Assembly: GCA_020344755.1 (NCBI GenBank)
Contig: CP070829.1
Location: 235,195 to 299,194 of the forward strand
Length of the DNA: 64,000 nucleotides
DNA from: Gemmatimonadales bacterium
GTDB lineage: Bacteria; Gemmatimonadota; Gemmatimonadetes; Longimicrobiales; Gaopeijiaceae
Reading direction: 5' to 3'
Shown: piece by piece, positions 2 through 9,105 of the stretch
Layout of the letters: each line of letters begins with the position of its first letter
Position numbering within the stretch: the stretch's first letter is position 1
The notes under the pieces: generated by a model
What the model was told of the DNA's origin: nothing
Database searches by the model: none
Seen by the model: the letters and a program-made list of their open reading frames with translations, nothing else
Position numbers and translations under genes: made by a program

Positions 2-1591
2 ATTCGGCTGCCAACATTCCCGGTCCAGGAGACGGATCCGGCGTTCATGACGGTGGTGGAAGCGGCCACGCTGCTGAGGGAGGGGTCGATGGGTGCCGGT
101 GAGCTGATGGAGGCATGCCTCGCCCGTGTCCGTTCCTACGAGTCCATCTATCAGGCGTTCAATACCGTCACCCGGGAGACCGCGCTGGAGCAGGCACACG
201 CGATCGAGGACAGGGCCGCGAGGGACGAGACATCGCCGCTGACGGGAATCCCGCTCGCGGTGAAGGACAACTTCTTCACCGCCGGCGTCCTGACCACGGC
301 GAACTCGCACCTCTTCAAGGAGTTCGTTCCGGACTTCGACGCGGAGGCGTGGGCACGACTCCGGGCCGCGGGAGGCATCCTGTTGGGCAAGACCCAGATG
401 GGCCCTCTGGCCACCTCCCGCGCCACGACCCCGGACGGGACCGTCACGACTCGCAATGCGTGGGCGCCCGGCAATCCCCGGATCAGTCCAGGCGGGTCCT
501 CGTCTGGGTCGGCGACGGCGGTGGCGGCTGGGATGGCACTCGCCGCCACGGGCACGCAGACCGGCGGGTCCATCACCAATCCTGCGGCTGCCCAGGGCCT
601 GACCGGGCTCAAGCCGACCATGGGCCGGGTGTCGCTCCGAGGCGTGATCCCCCTGTCGTACACCCGTGACCACCCCGGTCCCCTGGCCCGGGACGCCCAG
701 GACGTGGCTCTGCTCCTTCAGCTGATGGCCGGCCCCGACCCGGCGGACCCCCGGACCCTGGGGCAACCCTCCCTACCTGACCTGTTGACGGCAGCGATTC
801 CGTCCCTGACAACCGGGGGTTCGCCACGGTTGCGGTGGCCCACCCGGATCGGCGTTCCCCCGGATTACCTTCAGGAGCGGGGGGGCGAGCCTCCCCCCGA
901 GCCTCCCCCGGATGCCACCGCAGAGGACCGGGCACGATACGAGCGGATGAGGGAGGCCCGTGACCGTGCTGGTGGCGAAGTTCAGGCCCGACGGCGCATG
1001 CTGGAGACTTTCCGGGAGTTGGGGGCCGACATCGTGGAGGTCCCTCATCCCACCGACTGGGAGGTGCTGACGGGAGGGAGCTTCAACAACGCTCGCCTGC
1101 CCGAGCGATCCGAGATGTTCCTGGAGCACCTTCGATCGGACGTCCGGGGCTTTGGAGTCTCCCTCTCACCCTGGATCAACGGGCTCCTGCTTTCCGGGAC
1201 CGAGTACCTGCGTGGTCAGCGGGCCAAGCTGCTCCTCCTGGAGCGGGTCCTGGGGGAGATCTTCTCCCGGTGCGACGTGGTCGTGCAGACGCGGCCCATC
1301 CCCTTCGACATCATCGGGCTGCCCCTGATCTCCTTCCCCATCGGGGTCCGGGAGAGCGAGGATGGTGCGTTACCCGTAGGGGGGCTTCTGGGAGGCATGC
1401 CCTGGGCGGAGGATCGCCTGATCTCCATGGCCGCGGCCTTCCAGGCCGCCACGGACTGGCATCGGCGTCGTCCTCCCGAGCCCGAGGTGGCTGGGGACGG
1501 AATCGGCCCGGCGGCCCCGCGGGACGGTGCGGCCGACGGAGAGCCGGTGCTCCGGATGGATGTACTCGACGTCTGGGACGAGTGCCAGTAG
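2..1591 (+). CDS. Amidase-signature family hydrolase, 5'-truncated by the window edge
   Basis: Amidase-signature enzymes hydrolyse carbon-nitrogen bonds with a Ser-cisSer-Lys triad. All three residues are visible, counted from the Met at 47: Lys73 in AVKDN, cis-Ser151 in PGGSSSGSA and nucleophile Ser175 in GTQTGGSI. The 24-residue gap between the serines is the family spacing. The 15 codons before that Met (IRLPTFPVQETDPAF) are open to the window edge and read like the usual start of this fold, so the true start probably lies outside. A Pro/Glu-rich stretch near nt 880-930 looks like a flexible insertion. The substrate cannot be read: the family includes peptide, aryl and fatty-acid amidases. 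The usual GatB/GatC partners of an aminoacyl-tRNA amidotransferase subunit are not beside it, and the divergent C terminus argues against GatA. It is convergent with the MATE gene, 19 bp away. Confidence 0.9.
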   Translation: MRLPTFPVQETDPAFMTVVEAATLLREGSMGAGELMEACLARVRSYESIYQAFNTVTRETALEQAHAIEDRAARDETSPLTGIPLAVKDNFFTAGVLTTANSHLFKEFVPDFDAEAWARLRAAGGILLGKTQMGPLATSRATTPDGTVTTRNAWAPGNPRISPGGSSSGSATAVAAGMALAATGTQTGGSITNPAAAQGLTGLKPTMGRVSLRGVIPLSYTRDHPGPLARDAQDVALLLQLMAGPDPADPRTLGQPSLPDLLTAAIPSLTTGGSPRLRWPTRIGVPPDYLQERGGEPPPEPPPDATAEDRARYERMREARDRAGGEVQARRRMLETFRELGADIVEVPHPTDWEVLTGGSFNNARLPERSEMFLEHLRSDVRGFGVSLSPWINGLLLSGTEYLRGQRAKLLLLERVLGEIFSRCDVVVQTRPIPFDIIGLPLISFPIGVRESEDGALPVGGLLGGMPWAEDRLISMAAAFQAATDWHRRRPPEPEVAGDGIGPAAPRDGAADGEPVLRMDVLDVWDECQ

Positions 1592-1610
1592 GCCGAAACG
1601 GCAGCCCGCA

Positions 1611-3110
1611 CTAGACCGCCATGGCTTTCCAGCCTCCCCGGCGGAAGAAGATCGCGGCCACCACGGCCAGGGTGGAGAAGGCCACCGCGATGGCGACGAA
1701 TACCCCTTCGGGTCCCATCCCCAAGGGAAACGCCAGGAGCCAGGCGAGAGGGATCTCCAAGAACCAGAAGCAGCCCAGGTTCATCCAGGTGGGTGACCAC
1801 GCGTCCCCCGCTCCGTTGAAGGCCGCGGTGAGCACCATTCCGTAGGCGTAGAAGGGGAATCCGGCCGCCATGATCCGGAGTCCGTTCACTGCATACTCCG
1901 CGGTTACCGGGTCCACGGCGAACAGCCCGACGATGGGTCGGGCGAAGACGAGGAACACCAGTCCGACCGTCCCCAGGAAGGCCAGGTTCATCCGACCGGC
2001 CACCCAGGCCGACGCCTCGGCCCGGTCCGGCTGCTCCGCTCCGAGATTCTGCCCCACCATGGTGGAGGCGGCATTGCTCAGCCCCCACGCCGGGAGTAGG
2101 GCAAACAGGACGACCCGGACCGCCACCGTGTAGCCTGCGGTGGCCTCGCTGCCGAAGGAGGCGATGACCCGAACCAGCCCGATCCACGACGCGGTGCTCA
2201 CGAACACCTGGAAGGTGCCCGTCCCCGACAGACGGATCAGGCGGCCCATCACGTCCACCCGGACCCTCAGGTGCTCGATCCCCAGCCGCAGGCGGTCGGA
2301 GATCCGGAAGAGCGTCCACAGCTGGACCAGCACGGCGGTGCCGCGTCCCAGGGTCGTGGCCACGGCCGCCCCCGTGACGCCGAGCTCCGGGAACGGACCC
2401 AGCCCGAAAATCAGAAGGGGGTCCAGGACGATGTTGAGCCCGTTCGCCAACCAGAGCACGCGCATGGCGATCGCGGCGTCCCCCGCTCCCCGGAAGGCCG
2501 CATTCAGCAGGAACAGCAGGAAGATGACGCCGTTGAAGCCCAGGAGGGTGCGGGTGTAGCCCGTGCCCACGGCCACGACGGCCTCGCTTCCTCCCATGAG
2601 GCGCAGGAGGTTGGGTGCCTGCCAGGCTCCGAGCCCGCCCAGGATTGCCGCCAGCGCCCCCCCGAGAAGGATCCCCTGAACCGTGGCGTTGGCGGCGGCG
2701 TTCGCGTCTCCCTCCCCCGTCCGGCGGGAGACCGTGGCGGTGACCCCGATGGAGAGGCCCATGGCCGCCGTGTAGACGATGGCCATCATGGATTCGGTCA
2801 AACCCACCGAGGTGAGGGCGTCGGACCCGAGGCGTGAGACGAAGAAGACGTCCACCACGGCGAAGACCGACTCCATCGCCATTTCCAGGACCATGGGAAC
2901 CGCCAGCAGCACGATGGCGGGCCCGAGAGGACCGGAGGTGGGGTCTCCCCGGCCCCGGAGGGCATCCGCCACCAGGACGACGGCGCCTCGAACCCGGCCC
3001 GCTCCGGCCGATCGAGAGGGCGCTGGGGCGCTGGGGGGATCAGGAGGAGCCGAGTCGGCGTGCTGCGGACCTTCCGGGGGAGGCGGCGGGAAGGAGGAGT
3101 CGTGCGTCAT
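1611..3110 (-). CDS. MATE family multidrug/cation efflux transporter
   Basis: Inner-membrane antiporter of the MATE family, which expels drugs or metabolites using Na+ or H+ gradients. After about 55 Pro/Ala-rich residues the protein shows the two six-helix MatE halves (roughly residues 60-230 and 280-450). The first half opens with the typical LLAVPMVLEMAMES helix, followed by FFVSRLG and GLSIGVTATVSRRTG; the second half repeats the pattern (GQNLGAEQPDRAEAS). No Shine-Dalgarno sequence precedes the ATG at 3110, and the disordered N terminus is not needed for the fold, so a GTG near 2969 could be the real start. Upstream lies a promoter, a folded leader and an intrinsic terminator ending 15 bases before this ATG, so expression is probably set by transcription attenuation. 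The substrate is unknown. Confidence 0.93.
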   Translation of the reverse strand: MTHDSSFPPPPPEGPQHADSAPPDPPSAPAPSRSAGAGRVRGAVVLVADALRGRGDPTSGPLGPAIVLLAVPMVLEMAMESVFAVVDVFFVSRLGSDALTSVGLTESMMAIVYTAAMGLSIGVTATVSRRTGEGDANAAANATVQGILLGGALAAILGGLGAWQAPNLLRLMGGSEAVVAVGTGYTRTLLGFNGVIFLLFLLNAAFRGAGDAAIAMRVLWLANGLNIVLDPLLIFGLGPFPELGVTGAAVATTLGRGTAVLVQLWTLFRISDRLRLGIEHLRVRVDVMGRLIRLSGTGTFQVFVSTASWIGLVRVIASFGSEATAGYTVAVRVVLFALLPAWGLSNAASTMVGQNLGAEQPDRAEASAWVAGRMNLAFLGTVGLVFLVFARPIVGLFAVDPVTAEYAVNGLRIMAAGFPFYAYGMVLTAAFNGAGDAWSPTWMNLGCFWFLEIPLAWLLAFPLGMGPEGVFVAIAVAFSTLAVVAAIFFRRGGWKAMAV

Positions 3111-3125
3111 GGGTGTCCGGGACCG

Positions 3126-3163
3126 AAAAGAAAAACGGCTCCCCGGGCGCCGCCGGGAAGCCG
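3126..3163 (-). terminator. Intrinsic terminator/attenuator before the MATE gene
   Basis: Read on the minus strand, CGGCTTCCCGG pairs with CCGGGGAGCCG (11 pairs including one G-U) around a six-base loop, followed immediately by TTTTTCTTTT. This is the clearest intrinsic terminator in the window. It has no minus-strand gene upstream to end, because the neighbour is a divergent plus-strand gene. It sits inside the leader of the MATE transcript, which makes an attenuator the natural reading. Confidence 0.8.
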
Positions 3164-3305
3164 CTCACGCGCAATCTGTTGCGTCGGTCTCTCAGGCCCA
3201 CCCGGGGGAGATCGTAACGTGCCGGGAGGCGACCGATGGGAGATCGGTCGCTTCTCGGCTGAGGGTGGTCTTGCGCACGGGCGACTCCATCAGAGGGAAT
3301 CCAGC
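3126..3305 (-). promoter_or_regulatory. Structured leader RNA of the MATE gene, candidate riboswitch or attenuator
   Basis: About 180 bases separate the predicted transcription start from the terminator. The leader holds a perfect 9-bp hairpin with a CTCCC loop (3229-3251) and a 5-bp CGCAA/TTGCG hairpin (near 3170-3184). A CCACCC/GGGTGG pairing could enclose the 9-bp hairpin. The segment CTCCCCCGGG (3210-3201) is complementary to the 3' arm of the terminator (CCCGGGGAG), so it can act as an antiterminator by competing with the terminator stem. I do not recognise a known riboswitch consensus. Transcription-attenuation leaders before transporter genes are usually ligand sensors, but that is inference. 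Confidence 0.55.
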
Positions 3306-3311
3306 GCCTCC

Positions 3312-3340
3312 AGTCTACCCCGGATCCGAGAGCGAGACAA
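3312..3340 (-). promoter_or_regulatory. Sigma-70-type promoter for the MATE leader
   Basis: On the minus strand TTGTCT (3340-3335) and TAGACT (3317-3312) are separated by exactly 17 bases; each matches four of the six consensus bases. Transcription would start near 3305, about 195 bases before the MATE start codon, giving a long leader that contains the hairpins and terminator described here. Confidence 0.5.
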
Positions 3341-3460
3341 CGTCCTCGTGGCGGGATCCCAAGCGACCTCGTTATGGTATCAGGCTCGACGAATGACCCT
3401 TCGACGGCGCGTGGGACCCTCCCATGCCCCGAAATCCACGCAGAACCGCAAGGGATGAGG

Positions 3461-5818
3461 ATGAAGAAGCTCGGAAGTCTGATGCTGCTCGGTGCGGCGC
3501 TGGGGGCCCTCCTGGGACCGCGGCAGGTGCACGCCCAGTTCGGCGTCGCCCTGGAGGTCGGAGACGGCCAGGTCCTCGCCTCCGAACCCGGTCGAACCCT
3601 CGGGCCCGGAGCCGTGCTCGTTTACGAGAAGCGGGGCACGGCATGGATGCTGGCCGGGGAGTTCACCGCCTCGGACGGTGAGATCGGAGACCGCTTCGGC
3701 GCAGCCATGGCCCTGGACGGCGACCACCTTCTGGTAGCCGGGAGCAACGGAGTCTACGCCTTCCGAAACGACGGGGGCTCCTGGATCGAGACGGGTAAGC
3801 TGGTTGCCGCGGATGCCGGGGAAGCGGATGGATTCGGTCAGGCGCTGGCCCTGGCGGGGGACATGGCATTGGTGGGTGCCCCGGGCCAGATGGATGGAAA
3901 CGGGGCAGTCTACGTCTTCCATCGCGGTGACGACGGCTGGTCTCAGGTGGGCGAGAAGCTCACCGTCGCCGAGACGGGAACCGGCTTCGGCGCTTCCGTG
4001 GCTTTCGACGGGGGGAACGCTCTCGTGGGGGCTCCCATGGCGAACAATCGCGTCGGGGCCGCCCATGCCTTCAGGGCCGAGGGCATGACCCTGGAGCCCA
4101 TGGGGCAGCTCGAGGTCCAGGGACTCGCCGGGCGCAGCCAATTCGGGCAGGGGGTCTGGGTCGGAGGCGGTTGGGCCACGGTCCAGGCTCCCTTCGTCAA
4201 CGGGGCGACCGGGACCGTCTTCGTCTACGCCATGGGCGAGGAGGGCTGGGATCCGGTAGGGCAGCTCCAGGCCTTCGACGGCGGACTGAGGCACATCTTC
4301 GGCGCGGCCGTGGCCGTGAACGATGGGGAGGTCTGGGTCGGTGCCGCAGGGGCGAACGACTTCGCCGGCGCGGCCTACGTCTTCCGCGTCAACGAGGAAG
4401 GCACCGATATCACCAGCGTGCGGAAGATCACCCCCGGGGAAGGCTTCAGCGGCCGTACCCAGGCGGCGTCGACCCTGGCGGTGAACAACGACGTCGCGGT
4501 CATGGGCGTGCTCGGTGCCGACAACGGAGCTGGATCGGTGGTGGTCATGGAGCGAGGCGGCGACGGCGAGTGGGAGCGCTCGGCGGTACTCGAAACCCCC
4601 ATGGAGGGCTTCGATCCGGTCACCGGCGAAGAGGTAGCCTGCGAGAGTGGGAGCGCCGTCGGGTGGGACTGCTCGGAGGTCGACCTGGTGTCCTTCATTC
4701 CGGTATCCGAGTTGGCCGGGGAAGAGGGTGTGCGGGGGATTCGCACCAATGACAACTGGGGCTGGCAGGACCCGGAGACGGGCCGCTATTACGCACTGGT
4801 GGGGATGACGGACCGGGCCTCCTTCGTGGACATGACGGATCCGCTGAACCCCCGGGTTGTGGGGATCCTCCACATGACGGAAGGCGCGAACGGCAGCTCG
4901 TGGCGTGACATCAAGACCTATCAGAACCACGCCTTCATCGTCTCCGACGGTTCCGGGCAGCATGGGATGCAGGTGTTCGACCTGACCCGTCTCCGGGATC
5001 ACGCCAGCGGAGATCCGGTGGTCTTCGACGCCGATGCCCTCTACACCGAGATCGCTTCGGCGCACAACATCGTCATCAACGAGGAGAGCGGGTTCGCGTT
5101 CTCGGTCGGCAGCTCCTCGGGCGGGATCACCTGCGGCGGTGGGCTGCACATCATCGACATCCGCGAGCCGACGAATCCGACCTTCGCGGGTTGCTTCTCG
5201 GACCCCCAGACGGGGCGGGCCAGCACTGGGTACACCCACGACGCCCAGTGCGTCACCTACTCGGGTCCGGACGCGGATCACCAGGGGAAGGAGATCTGCT
5301 TCGGGGCGAACGAGACGATGCTCTCCATCGCCGACGTGACCGACAAGGAGAACACCGTGGCGCTCTCCCGGTCGGCGTATCCCTCGGTAGGGTACTCGCA
5401 CCAGGGGTGGCTCAGTGAGGACCAGGCCTGGTTCTTCATGAACGACGAGCTGGACGAGCTGCAAGGACTCGTTGGACAGACCCGTACCCTGGTGTGGGAC
5501 GTGTCGGATCTGGACGATCCGCAGTTGGTGGCGGAGCACCTCGGGACCCAGGAGTCGTCGGATCACAACCTCTACGTGGTCGGCGACCTGATGTACCAGT
5601 CCAACTACCAGAGCGGTCTGCGGATCCTGGACATCCAGGATCCCGCCAACCCGGTGGAGGTGGCCTTCTTCGACACCGTCCCCTACGGTGACAACGGTGC
5701 CGGTTTCGGGGGCTCCTGGTCCAACTACCCCTTCTTCGACAACGGGCTGGTCCTCGTCACCAGCGGTAATGAGGGGATGTTCCTGGTGCGCCCCACGATC
5801 CGGCGCACCGTCTTCTAG
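3461..5818 (+). CDS. Secreted choice-of-anchor B family beta-propeller protein
   Basis: Exported protein of 785 residues. The start at 3461 is chosen because AAGGG lies 7 bases upstream and the product then opens with a clean signal peptide (MKKLGSLMLLGAALGALL, cleavage after VHAQ); an ATG at 3455 is too close to that Shine-Dalgarno sequence. Residues about 30-400 contain FG-GAP-like propeller repeats (recurring DGDxxLVG, GAAYVFR and similar). Residues about 410-785 match the choice-of-anchor B family: VRGIRTNDNWGWQDPETGR, WRDIKTYQNHAFIVSDGSG, then LVIVD-like repeats with DITDP-type turns. The family is surface-associated, of unknown function and with variable C-terminal anchors; no sorting helix is visible here. 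It is followed by two more secreted repeat proteins, suggesting a common envelope role. Confidence 0.85.
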   Translation: MKKLGSLMLLGAALGALLGPRQVHAQFGVALEVGDGQVLASEPGRTLGPGAVLVYEKRGTAWMLAGEFTASDGEIGDRFGAAMALDGDHLLVAGSNGVYAFRNDGGSWIETGKLVAADAGEADGFGQALALAGDMALVGAPGQMDGNGAVYVFHRGDDGWSQVGEKLTVAETGTGFGASVAFDGGNALVGAPMANNRVGAAHAFRAEGMTLEPMGQLEVQGLAGRSQFGQGVWVGGGWATVQAPFVNGATGTVFVYAMGEEGWDPVGQLQAFDGGLRHIFGAAVAVNDGEVWVGAAGANDFAGAAYVFRVNEEGTDITSVRKITPGEGFSGRTQAASTLAVNNDVAVMGVLGADNGAGSVVVMERGGDGEWERSAVLETPMEGFDPVTGEEVACESGSAVGWDCSEVDLVSFIPVSELAGEEGVRGIRTNDNWGWQDPETGRYYALVGMTDRASFVDMTDPLNPRVVGILHMTEGANGSSWRDIKTYQNHAFIVSDGSGQHGMQVFDLTRLRDHASGDPVVFDADALYTEIASAHNIVINEESGFAFSVGSSSGGITCGGGLHIIDIREPTNPTFAGCFSDPQTGRASTGYTHDAQCVTYSGPDADHQGKEICFGANETMLSIADVTDKENTVALSRSAYPSVGYSHQGWLSEDQAWFFMNDELDELQGLVGQTRTLVWDVSDLDDPQLVAEHLGTQESSDHNLYVVGDLMYQSNYQSGLRILDIQDPANPVEVAFFDTVPYGDNGAGFGGSWSNYPFFDNGLVLVTSGNEGMFLVRPTIRRTVF

Positions 5819-5883
5819 GAACGTCACGGCGGCGCTTCGGCCGGCGGATCCGGATCGAAGTGCCGATGGTTGTTTACGATTCT

Positions 5884-5914
5884 GGGGAGGGGGGGCCGCG
5901 GCTCCCCCTCCCCC
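5884..5914. terminator. GC-rich hairpin after the choice-of-anchor B gene
   Basis: GGGGAGGGGG pairs perfectly with CCCCCTCCCC across a 10-base loop, about 65 bp after the stop codon at 5818. There is no T-run after it, so it may only weaken read-through or stabilise the mRNA end. Confidence 0.35.
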
Positions 5915-6019
5915 TTCGCAGGAGCTTCCCTCGCGGGGGCGCTGGTCGCGCTGACCGCTCGCTCGGGCGCGATCCCATCGGGAAGTCAATGAATGCAACT
6001 GATACCGCGGAGTGATTCG

Positions 6020-7123
6020 ATGAGGGTGAGTGTGAAGGAGATGCGGCGCGTGGGGCTGGTCGGACTGGGGATCCTGGGAATGGCCGCTGGCGGGGATCTT
6101 CAGGCCCAGGACCAGAGCCTCCTCTACGTTGCGGTACAGGGAGACGCGCAGGTGGCGATCGTGGACATGGCCGAGCTGGAGGAGGTGGCACGCATCGACC
6201 TGCAGACCCTGGGCTTCACCGCGAACGCCAAGCCGCACCACGTGGCCGTGGAGGCGGACGGGAGCCACTGGTACCTCTCGCTCATCGGTGAGAATCGGGT
6301 CCTCAAGTTCGACCGGGAGAACCGCCTGGTTGCGCAGGCGGAGTTCGAAGTCCCGGGAATGCTGGCGGTACATCCGAGCCGGGACCTCCTCCTGGTGGGA
6401 CGCTCCATGAGCGCTGTGAGCCCGCCCCAACGAATCGGGGCCATCACGCGGTCCACCATGGAGGTGGAAGAGGTGGACGTCTTCTTCCCCCGGCCCCACG
6501 CCATCGCGGTGTCTCCCGACGGCCAGCGGGTGTACACCGCTTCCCTCGCGGTGAACCAGATGGGGGCCGTGGACCTCGAGACGCTCGACCTCACCCTCAC
6601 GGACCTCGAGGGTCCCGTGCATACCCTCGTGCAGTTCGCGGTCTCGCCCGATGGCTCCACCCTGGTCGGCACGGCCCAGCTCACGGGCCGCCTCCTCATC
6701 TTCGACCTCACGGACCCGGAGCACCCCGCGTTGCGGGACCAGGTGGAGGTGGGGCGACAGCCATGGCACCCGGTGTTCGGTGCCGATGGGCGCACGGTCT
6801 ACTTCGGAGTGAAGCTGGACAACAGGGTGGTGGCCGTGGACGTGACCACCGGAGAAGTGGTGTGGAGTACCGATCATCCCGGGCTCAGCGCCCCCCACGG
6901 AGCGGCGGTCTCGCCCGACGGGCGGTTCCTCTTCGTCTCCAGCAACGGACCCGGTGGGATGGCCATGGATCCGGAGCATGAGATGCACGAGGGCGAGGAG
7001 CATGGCGCGATGCATCCCGCCGAGACCGGCACCATCACGGTGTTGGACACCTCCGACGGAACCGTGGTCAAGGTGCTGGAGATGGGAACGAACACCACGG
7101 GAGTGGGGGCCGCGAGCCGGTGA
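6020..7123 (+). CDS. YncE-like secreted beta-propeller protein
   Basis: Exported protein of 367 residues built almost wholly from YVTN/YncE-type blades: repeated SPDGxxVY, VDLETLDL and AVSPDGRFLFVSS segments form a seven-bladed-propeller pattern. The ATG at 6020 is used because GGAG lies 7 bases before it and the product begins with a signal peptide ending DLQAQ; an upstream ATG at 5993 lacks such a site. A His/Met/Glu-rich stretch near residues 310-335 (MDPEHEMHEGEEHGAMHP) interrupts the last blade and could bind a metal. The stop overlaps the next start (GTGA), so the two proteins are probably made together. Function unknown; relatives bind partners or redox cofactors in the periplasm. Confidence 0.85.
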   Translation: MRVSVKEMRRVGLVGLGILGMAAGGDLQAQDQSLLYVAVQGDAQVAIVDMAELEEVARIDLQTLGFTANAKPHHVAVEADGSHWYLSLIGENRVLKFDRENRLVAQAEFEVPGMLAVHPSRDLLLVGRSMSAVSPPQRIGAITRSTMEVEEVDVFFPRPHAIAVSPDGQRVYTASLAVNQMGAVDLETLDLTLTDLEGPVHTLVQFAVSPDGSTLVGTAQLTGRLLIFDLTDPEHPALRDQVEVGRQPWHPVFGADGRTVYFGVKLDNRVVAVDVTTGEVVWSTDHPGLSAPHGAAVSPDGRFLFVSSNGPGGMAMDPEHEMHEGEEHGAMHPAETGTITVLDTSDGTVVKVLEMGTNTTGVGAASR

Positions 7124-9105
7124 TCCCCTCGGTAGCATCCCGCGCGGGTGGCGCGCTTCTGGGTGGCCTTCTGGCCATGGGGTGCGCCGCCGGTCCCGCA
7201 GCCCCTCCCGATCCCGTCCGACCCTCCGACACCTTCCGCCGGGAGGTGACTCCGTTTCCGGTCCTGGATGAGAACGGGACCCCCTATGCGCACCCCTTCC
7301 TGGGCGGTTTGGACGTGCCGCGGCCGCAGTTCGCCGATCCGGACGGCGACGGGGATCCGGACCTCTTCATCCAGGAGCGTACGGACCAGCTCATGTTCTT
7401 CGAGAACGTGGGTACGGCAGCGGAGCCTCGATTCGTCTGGCGCACCGATCGTTGGCTGGATCTCGCCGTGGGGGAGTGGAGCCGCTTCTACGACATGGAC
7501 GGGGACGGGGACCTGGACCTCCTGGCCGAGTCCCCCTTCAGCTACATCCGGTACTTCCGAAACGACGGGAGCCCCACCTCCCCTCGGTACGTGGCTGCGG
7601 CGGACACGCTCCGGGAAAGCACGGGCAGGCCCGTCTTCTCGGACCGCCAGAACATCCCGAACCTCACCGACATCGACTGCGATGGCCGAGTCGACCTCTT
7701 CCTGGGTCGAGTGGACGGAACGGTCAGCCGCTTCGAGGAAGGAGCACGGGCGCCGGACGGCGTCCCGGTTTTCGACCTGGTCACGGAGCGCTTCGAGGAC
7801 ATCGAGATCGTGGCCGCCATCGCGGTGCCCGGTGGCATGGGAGCGGACGGCATGGCCCTGGGGTCGCAGGGAGCGCCGGAGGCGTCGCAGCCCGGTGGGA
7901 CCGATGGGTGGCCCGTGCGTCGCGCCATGGCGTGGCCGGCATCCCCGTCCGGCGCCCGGGGAACCGCCCTCCATGGGGCCAACTCCATGGTCTTCGCCGA
8001 TGTGGACGACGACGGTGACCAGGACTTCTTCTGGGGCGACTTCTTCGAGCCCGGTCTGCTCTGGATCGAGAACCTGGGAAGCTGCCAGCGGCCGGATCTG
8101 CGAGCCATGCCTCAGCCCGTGCCCGCCGACGAGCTGATCGCCACCAGCGGATACAACGCCGCTGCCATTCACGACCTGGACGGCGACGGCGACCAGGACC
8201 TTCTCATCGGCGTTTTGGGCGGCGCCTTCAACCCCAACACCACCGCCGCGGAGAACCTCATCTACCACGAGCGCCTCCCGTCCGGGCTCGTGACCCGGCG
8301 GACGGCGCGGTTCCTGGACGGGATCGACGTGGGGAGTGAGAGCACCGTCACTCTCGGCGACCTGGACGGCGACGGCGACCTGGACATGCTTCTCGGGAGC
8401 AAGCTGGATCCGCAGACGCTGAATGCGGCGAGGCTCTATCTCTTCGAGAACGTGGGCACGCGCAATGCTCCGTCGTACCTACTCAGCGACACCTTGGCGG
8501 TGGCTGAGACCTACCACCTGGCACCGTCCCTGGCGGACCTGGATGCGGACGGGGACCTGGACCTGGTCCTGGGGACCTGGAACCAGGACGTCCGCTACCT
8601 GAGGAACGAAGGCAGCGAAACGGACGCCCGCTTCCAGGCCGTGGGAGAGGAACCGCTGGCGGACCTGCCTCGGGGGAGCCACTCCACACCTGCCCTGGGC
8701 GATCTGGACGGGGATGGGGATCTGGACCTGCTGGTGGGGGAGTCTTCCGGCGAGATCAACCTCTTCATGAACGCTGGGACCCCCCAGGATCCCCGGTACG
8801 AGCTGGTGACGGAGCGACTCGGCGGGATCGACGTGGGCCGCAGGAGCGCCCCGGCCCTGGTGGACCTGGACGCCGACGGGGACCTGGATCTGCTCGTGGG
8901 TAGCGAGGACGGTGGGGCGGCGGTCTTCCTGAACACCGGTACGCCGCAGGAGCCGACCTTCGCCGCGGAGGACAGCCTGGCTGTGCCCCTTCCGGCCTAC
9001 GCCACCCCGGTCCTGGCGGACGTGGATGGCGACGGCGATCTCGACGTGGTGGCGGGAGGGCTGGGAGGTGGGGTCGTCTTCTTCAGGAACACTCGCACCC
9101 GCTGA
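7120..9105 (+). CDS. FG-GAP/VCBS-repeat lipoprotein
   Basis: Surface or periplasmic lipoprotein of 661 residues. The GTG at 7120 overlaps the preceding stop, and the product opens with a lipoprotein-type signal (GGLLAMGCAAG, lipidated Cys at 22). The body contains at least ten calcium-binding-type loops of the form DxDGDGDLDL (for example DPDGDGDPDLF, DMDGDGDLDLL, DADGDLDLVLG), the hallmark of FG-GAP/VCBS propeller repeats, separated by FFxNxGxxxxPxF strands. A low-complexity, Met/Gly/Pro-rich insertion lies near residues 240-285. Such proteins bind calcium and often act in adhesion or ligand binding at the cell surface; no catalytic motif is visible. Confidence 0.88.
   Translation: MIPSVASRAGGALLGGLLAMGCAAGPAAPPDPVRPSDTFRREVTPFPVLDENGTPYAHPFLGGLDVPRPQFADPDGDGDPDLFIQERTDQLMFFENVGTAAEPRFVWRTDRWLDLAVGEWSRFYDMDGDGDLDLLAESPFSYIRYFRNDGSPTSPRYVAAADTLRESTGRPVFSDRQNIPNLTDIDCDGRVDLFLGRVDGTVSRFEEGARAPDGVPVFDLVTERFEDIEIVAAIAVPGGMGADGMALGSQGAPEASQPGGTDGWPVRRAMAWPASPSGARGTALHGANSMVFADVDDDGDQDFFWGDFFEPGLLWIENLGSCQRPDLRAMPQPVPADELIATSGYNAAAIHDLDGDGDQDLLIGVLGGAFNPNTTAAENLIYHERLPSGLVTRRTARFLDGIDVGSESTVTLGDLDGDGDLDMLLGSKLDPQTLNAARLYLFENVGTRNAPSYLLSDTLAVAETYHLAPSLADLDADGDLDLVLGTWNQDVRYLRNEGSETDARFQAVGEEPLADLPRGSHSTPALGDLDGDGDLDLLVGESSGEINLFMNAGTPQDPRYELVTERLGGIDVGRRSAPALVDLDADGDLDLLVGSEDGGAAVFLNTGTPQEPTFAAEDSLAVPLPAYATPVLADVDGDGDLDVVAGGLGGGVVFFRNTRTR

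Follow-up and report, generated by a model that had tools for sequence, protein, structure and literature searches.

The DNA analysed here (the window) is a 64,000-nucleotide stretch of contig CP070829.1 from a Gemmatimonadales bacterium. It carries on its minus strand a gene for a MATE family efflux transporter (1611–3110), the proposed target of the leader described below. The family identity of the product is firm at the sequence level, with matches to Pfam MatE (9e-54), NCBIfam TIGR00797 (6.9e-76) and MATE structures in the PDB. Membership of MatE/TIGR00797 places the gene among targets of the drug resistance/export type, at the level of the family only. The neighbours on the other side of the leader (3374–5818 and 5993–9105, both plus strand) are divergent and encode FG-GAP/LVIVD and beta-propeller repeat proteins, which have no apparent functional link to the pump.

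The leader has a −35 box TTGTCT (3335–3340) and a −10 box TAGACT (3312–3317), on the minus strand like all its other features and separated by a spacer of 17 bases. From the position of this promoter, transcription would be expected to start near 3305. A Shine-Dalgarno sequence, GGAG (3285–3288), lies 6 nt 5' of the GTG start of a short upstream ORF (uORF) of 28 codons (3192–3278, MRKTTLSREATDLPSVASRHVTISPGWA), which ends with a TGA stop at 3194–3192. The uORF includes a perfect 9-bp hairpin (3229–3251), and its end, region 2 (CCGGGTGGGCC, 3195–3205), is the proposed antiterminator strand with 3163–3153 as its partner. The stop codon lies 25 nt before a terminator hairpin (3133–3166), recognized by a terminator scan and by folding, whose 5' arm (3166–3153) and 3' arm (3146–3133) form a stem of 14 pairs closed by a loop. 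Its U-tract, TTTTTCTTTT (3126–3135), ends 15 bases before the MATE ATG (3110). This is the strongest of four terminator-like sites in 1500–7200, where 1.8 are expected, and it serves no upstream gene because the gene upstream of the leader is divergent. The original prediction had named the promoter with its exact 17-base spacing, the terminator with its U-tract 15 bases before the MATE start and the lack of an upstream gene needing it, all of which hold. It had also described a folded leader; taken whole, the leader is only a little better folded than shuffled sequence (z -2.3). It overlooked the uORF, which organises the element.

MATE orthologs were gathered from the genus, the family and the order (the clade being Longimicrobiales, Gemmatimonadota) and from named genomes. 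A promoter, a uORF of 15–44 codons and a terminator were found just 5' of the MATE gene in the window and in 11 other Longimicrobiales genomes. This set of 12 leaders, in which the window's own is L009, covers all six species of the genus that the analysis included and six further genomes (L015, L025, L119, L120, L124, and L127). L025 entered the set by eye, its short U-tract having been missed by the terminator scan. L022 (G034) was not counted because its terminator stands directly behind a long upstream gene, and L017 (G056) is cut by a contig end. Most MATE orthologs outside the set have no leader; in leaderless ones (e.g., in genera g11 and g25) the ATG is immediately preceded by a TAGCTT-type box. 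The leader is thus restricted to some lineages, and the pump does not always come with it.

A promoter like that of the window (TTGNNN-17-TANNNT) recurs in nearly all 12 leaders, with 28–58 nt from its −10 box to the start of the uORF; the exceptions are one spacer of 18 and poor −10 boxes in L014 and L127. All 12 have a short uORF with a ribosome-binding site; the Shine-Dalgarno sequence is clear in most and weak in L025. The uORF stop is always 22–30 nt before the terminator stem (12/12), despite a threefold range of uORF length. To avoid choice by eye, a script also took the ORF with the best Shine-Dalgarno score in the 260 nt before each terminator. This blind caller placed the stop 20–32 nt from the terminator in every leader, against a mean of 0.93 and a maximum of 5 out of 12 in 500 shuffled sets, although such shuffles do not model relatedness and the sequences are not independent. 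It chose the same uORF or its frame in 10 of the 12 leaders, among them the window's; the exceptions are L012 and L013, where its choice fell on an overlapping frame that starts at or upstream of the promoter. Judged from the sequences, the constant spacing between stop and terminator is hard to explain by descent alone, since the uORF bodies have diverged so far.

Residues outside the two ends of the uORF differ among the relatives and are not conserved, and the only match to a fragment of the L015 uORF was that fragment itself. Most members end in Pro-Gly-Trp, encoded by CCC GGG TGG just before the stop; L120 has an in-frame insertion here (CCC GGG GGG TGG) that keeps the reading frame to the stop. 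At the other end, Arg is found at codon 2 in 8/12 and Thr at codon 5 in 7/12 (P 0.006 over six columns). None of the 12 uORFs encodes a run of one amino acid. In several leaders the uORF start (ATGCGC) seemed by eye to form a helix with GCGCAY upstream of the terminator; this helix was rejected, as it is broken in L012 and L119.

The end of the uORF can pair with either arm of the terminator. The original prediction had pointed to a segment complementary to the 3' arm, and this segment exists (CCCCCGGG, 3208–3201), but across the 12 leaders the uORF end shows no excess of pairing with the 3' arm over dinucleotide shuffles (P 0.18). Pairing with the 5' arm does beat such shuffles (combined Fisher P 6e-5 for the 12 leaders), and the uORF end is the best partner of the 5' arm within the leader in 8 of 12 (P 8e-4). 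An antiterminator exclusive with the terminator and formed from the uORF end is therefore seen for the group, and is weak in single leaders: L014, L015, L124, and L127 do not exceed chance in 5'-arm pairing, and L009 by itself gives a P of 0.12. In folds of the transcript as it stands prior to synthesis of the 3' arm, region 2 paired with the 5' arm at a mean of 0.58 if a ribosome occupied the uORF start, compared with 0.13 if none was placed; a ribosome modelled at the uORF stop removes region 2 by construction. The terminator is kept in the relatives, and covariation is uninformative here because most of its pairs are invariant (7 of 12 stem pairs never vary).

We consider it probable (about 0.85), from these sequence comparisons, that the leader is a ribosome-mediated transcription attenuator of the leader-peptide type, proposed to control the MATE efflux pump. 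A sigma-70-type promoter would produce a leader RNA that encodes the 28-codon uORF. During normal translation the ribosome would proceed to the uORF stop and cover the last codons (region 2), so that the terminator 25 nt downstream could form and transcription would end before MATE. If the ribosome instead stalled or slowed early in the uORF, region 2 would be left free to pair with the 5' arm and pre-empt the terminator, and the pump would be made. Under the model a stall at Pro-Gly-Trp would keep the pump off, so what preserves these codons may be the RNA pairing, a slow release at the stop, or both.

The inducing signal would most likely be inhibition of translation, for example by a ribosome-targeting drug. 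Such inhibition would be a natural signal because the target is an efflux pump, as has been shown for BmrB/BmrCD (PMC4191407). By this analogy, and given the attenuator, we put drug-type inhibition at slightly better than even odds. The same attenuator could also respond when an amino acid or charged tRNA (e.g., Thr, Pro, or Arg) runs short, in the manner of trp, and the biased codons 2 and 5 as well as other attenuators of the clade are consistent with this.

These other attenuators came from a covariance model built from nine of the leaders. Searched against the order, the model recovered all nine source MATE leaders plus two MATE leaders that had been left out of it, L124 (E 3e-5) and L015 (E 0.007), and its top matches were MATE leaders. 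Beyond the order, in the phylum, it matched mostly ordinary gene-end terminators. Within the order, further matches lay before asnB, where the leader peptides are MSFVSLNGNNSLNPLSTGSRGSGVLLP and MRCACANRQNSNNPRTPRSRGAGMPLS, and before DAHP synthase, where they are MRHEWINAAPEYSYWYWSGPWAGSQRSVRA and MFKLGASTYAPVYSYPLPHGRSGGSGV (peptides taken from the sequence, gene names by NCBIfam). In Longimicrobiales, a terminator and a short ORF rich in Asn stand ahead of asnB (asparagine synthase B) in L150 (G046:C155:6824-6910), L161 (G048:C474), L194, and L197, likely an asparagine attenuator. Upstream of DAHP synthase, a terminator is accompanied by short ORFs with many Trp, Tyr, and Phe codons (e.g., YSYWYW and RYWYF) in L157 (G025:C138), L163 (G020:C79), and L186–L189, likely attenuators for aromatic amino acids. 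Leaders of this kind with RYWYF, RYWF, or RYWTW could be read from sequences of the window's own genus, while at the DAHP synthase copy of the window's own genome (L190) the aromatic leader is absent. Two further loci may have a leader of this layout. In L164 (G036:C4:61638-61672) a threonyl-tRNA-synthetase-like gene, named by eye from the sequence (NCBIfam gave no match to the fragment), has a terminator ∼50 nt upstream and, ahead of this terminator, a short ORF with several Thr codons; this is possibly a Thr attenuator. L173 (G370:C36:80461-80546), from another family of the class, has a terminator and a possible short ORF before an ABC-transporter ATPase-like gene and could be a similar leader. 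The MATE, asnB and DAHP synthase leaders indicate that the Longimicrobiales clade uses leader-peptide attenuation for several genes, and by analogy the amino-acid leaders of the same layout support ribosome-mediated attenuation as an active mechanism in the clade.

Even so, a trp-type signal for the MATE leader seems unlikely. In such an attenuator the peptide is rich in the amino acid that matches the downstream pathway, and apart from Thr at codon 5 no such enrichment was found in the 12 MATE uORFs, which lack the runs of the aromatic and Asn leaders. Nor is a MATE pump a biosynthetic gene, and only the ends of the uORF are conserved. A more speculative idea, to which we give little credence, is that the uORF ending in Pro-Gly-Trp encodes a sensor that works as a nascent peptide: inside the exit tunnel, and jointly with a specific drug or metabolite, it would hold or release the ribosome at the uORF end and so set pump expression. 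If true, the phylum, in which no arrest peptides have been studied, would have an undescribed one.

It is quite improbable that the element instead yields a short independent transcript, such as a small RNA or the message for a secreted or regulatory small peptide, that ends before a MATE gene with its own downstream promoter. The element does have its own promoter, its own terminator and an ORF with a recurrent Pro-Gly-Trp end, and there is a weak likeness to plasmid ctRNAs (24 bits, cut-off 50). This likeness reflects a GC hairpin and a U-tract, and the ctRNA assignment was rejected with a score below the threshold. The peptide body, however, diverges freely, and the element stands directly before MATE in the relatives, as do the top model matches in the order. 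Furthermore, the ∼15 nt from the U-tract to the MATE ATG in the window are too little for another promoter. A repeated or mobile element was likewise rejected, since the leader is single copy in its genome and absent from plasmids.

Known riboswitches do control efflux pumps, and the original prediction had left the choice between riboswitch and attenuator open. A true riboswitch, in which the leader RNA would bind a ligand without ribosomes and toggle terminator and antiterminator, would fit the folded leader and the mutually exclusive pairings, but we regard it as very improbable: Rfam gave no match at the gathering score and no riboswitch at E up to 10, and in the 12 leaders no conserved aptamer was found between promoter and terminator, where only the uORF start and uORF end are kept in addition to the terminator, while leader length and 5' hairpins vary freely, so that a common aptamer has no place there. 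The perfect 9-bp hairpin does exist; it lies inside the uORF, is peculiar to the window's genome and was discarded as an aptamer. The CTGAGA near 3190, already noted as lacking the rest of the TPP consensus, is not set in any TPP context and shares bases with the stop codon of the uORF; TPP and other riboswitches were rejected with no Rfam match. It is the attenuator half of the original prediction that stands, with promoter, uORF and terminator conserved together and the distance from uORF stop to terminator tightly fixed.

The leader-peptide attenuator proposed here is of a known kind, while the phylum, the MATE target and the uORF family appear to be undescribed within the literature searched. 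There we found no clear precedent for translation-coupled transcription attenuation of a MATE exporter, an absence that is not proof, and the combination of Gemmatimonadetes, leader peptide and attenuation was not found either. The leader offers a testable candidate for the control of an efflux pump in an environmental phylum that has received little study, and would add the MATE family to the exporters under translation-coupled transcription attenuation.

Trp-type amino-acid attenuators, including the DAHP synthase and asnB leaders of Longimicrobiales, likewise have a short uORF with its stop close before a terminator, an antiterminator from the uORF end and the gene directly downstream, but the MATE uORF is without their run of regulatory codons. 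The toiL uORF of Escherichia coli topAI, which is also short, can sense several classes of ribosome-targeting antibiotics via stalling at different codons (PMC12121999); it acts on a ribosome-binding site and Rho-dependent termination, whereas the MATE leader has an intrinsic terminator. A short uORF and a terminator/antiterminator precede antibiotic resistance genes in Rli53/lmo0919 of Listeria (PMC8079631) and in vmlR of Bacillus subtilis (PMC9226507). Both are ABC-F genes of Bacillota and the Rli53 uORF has three codons, compared with a MATE gene and 28 codons here. The BmrB leader of bmrCD in B. subtilis, a translated leader ORF with a terminator, places a multidrug exporter under ribosome-mediated transcription attenuation and is induced by ribosome-targeting antibiotics (PMC4191407). 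Its target is an ABC transporter rather than a MATE protein, and its 53-codon ORF contains the terminator, whereas here the stop lies ahead of it. Expression falls when bmrB translation is lost (PMC4191407). The likeness of the MATE leader to it is one of layout: in both, a leader ORF (its translation being predicted here) and a terminator stand before an exporter gene.
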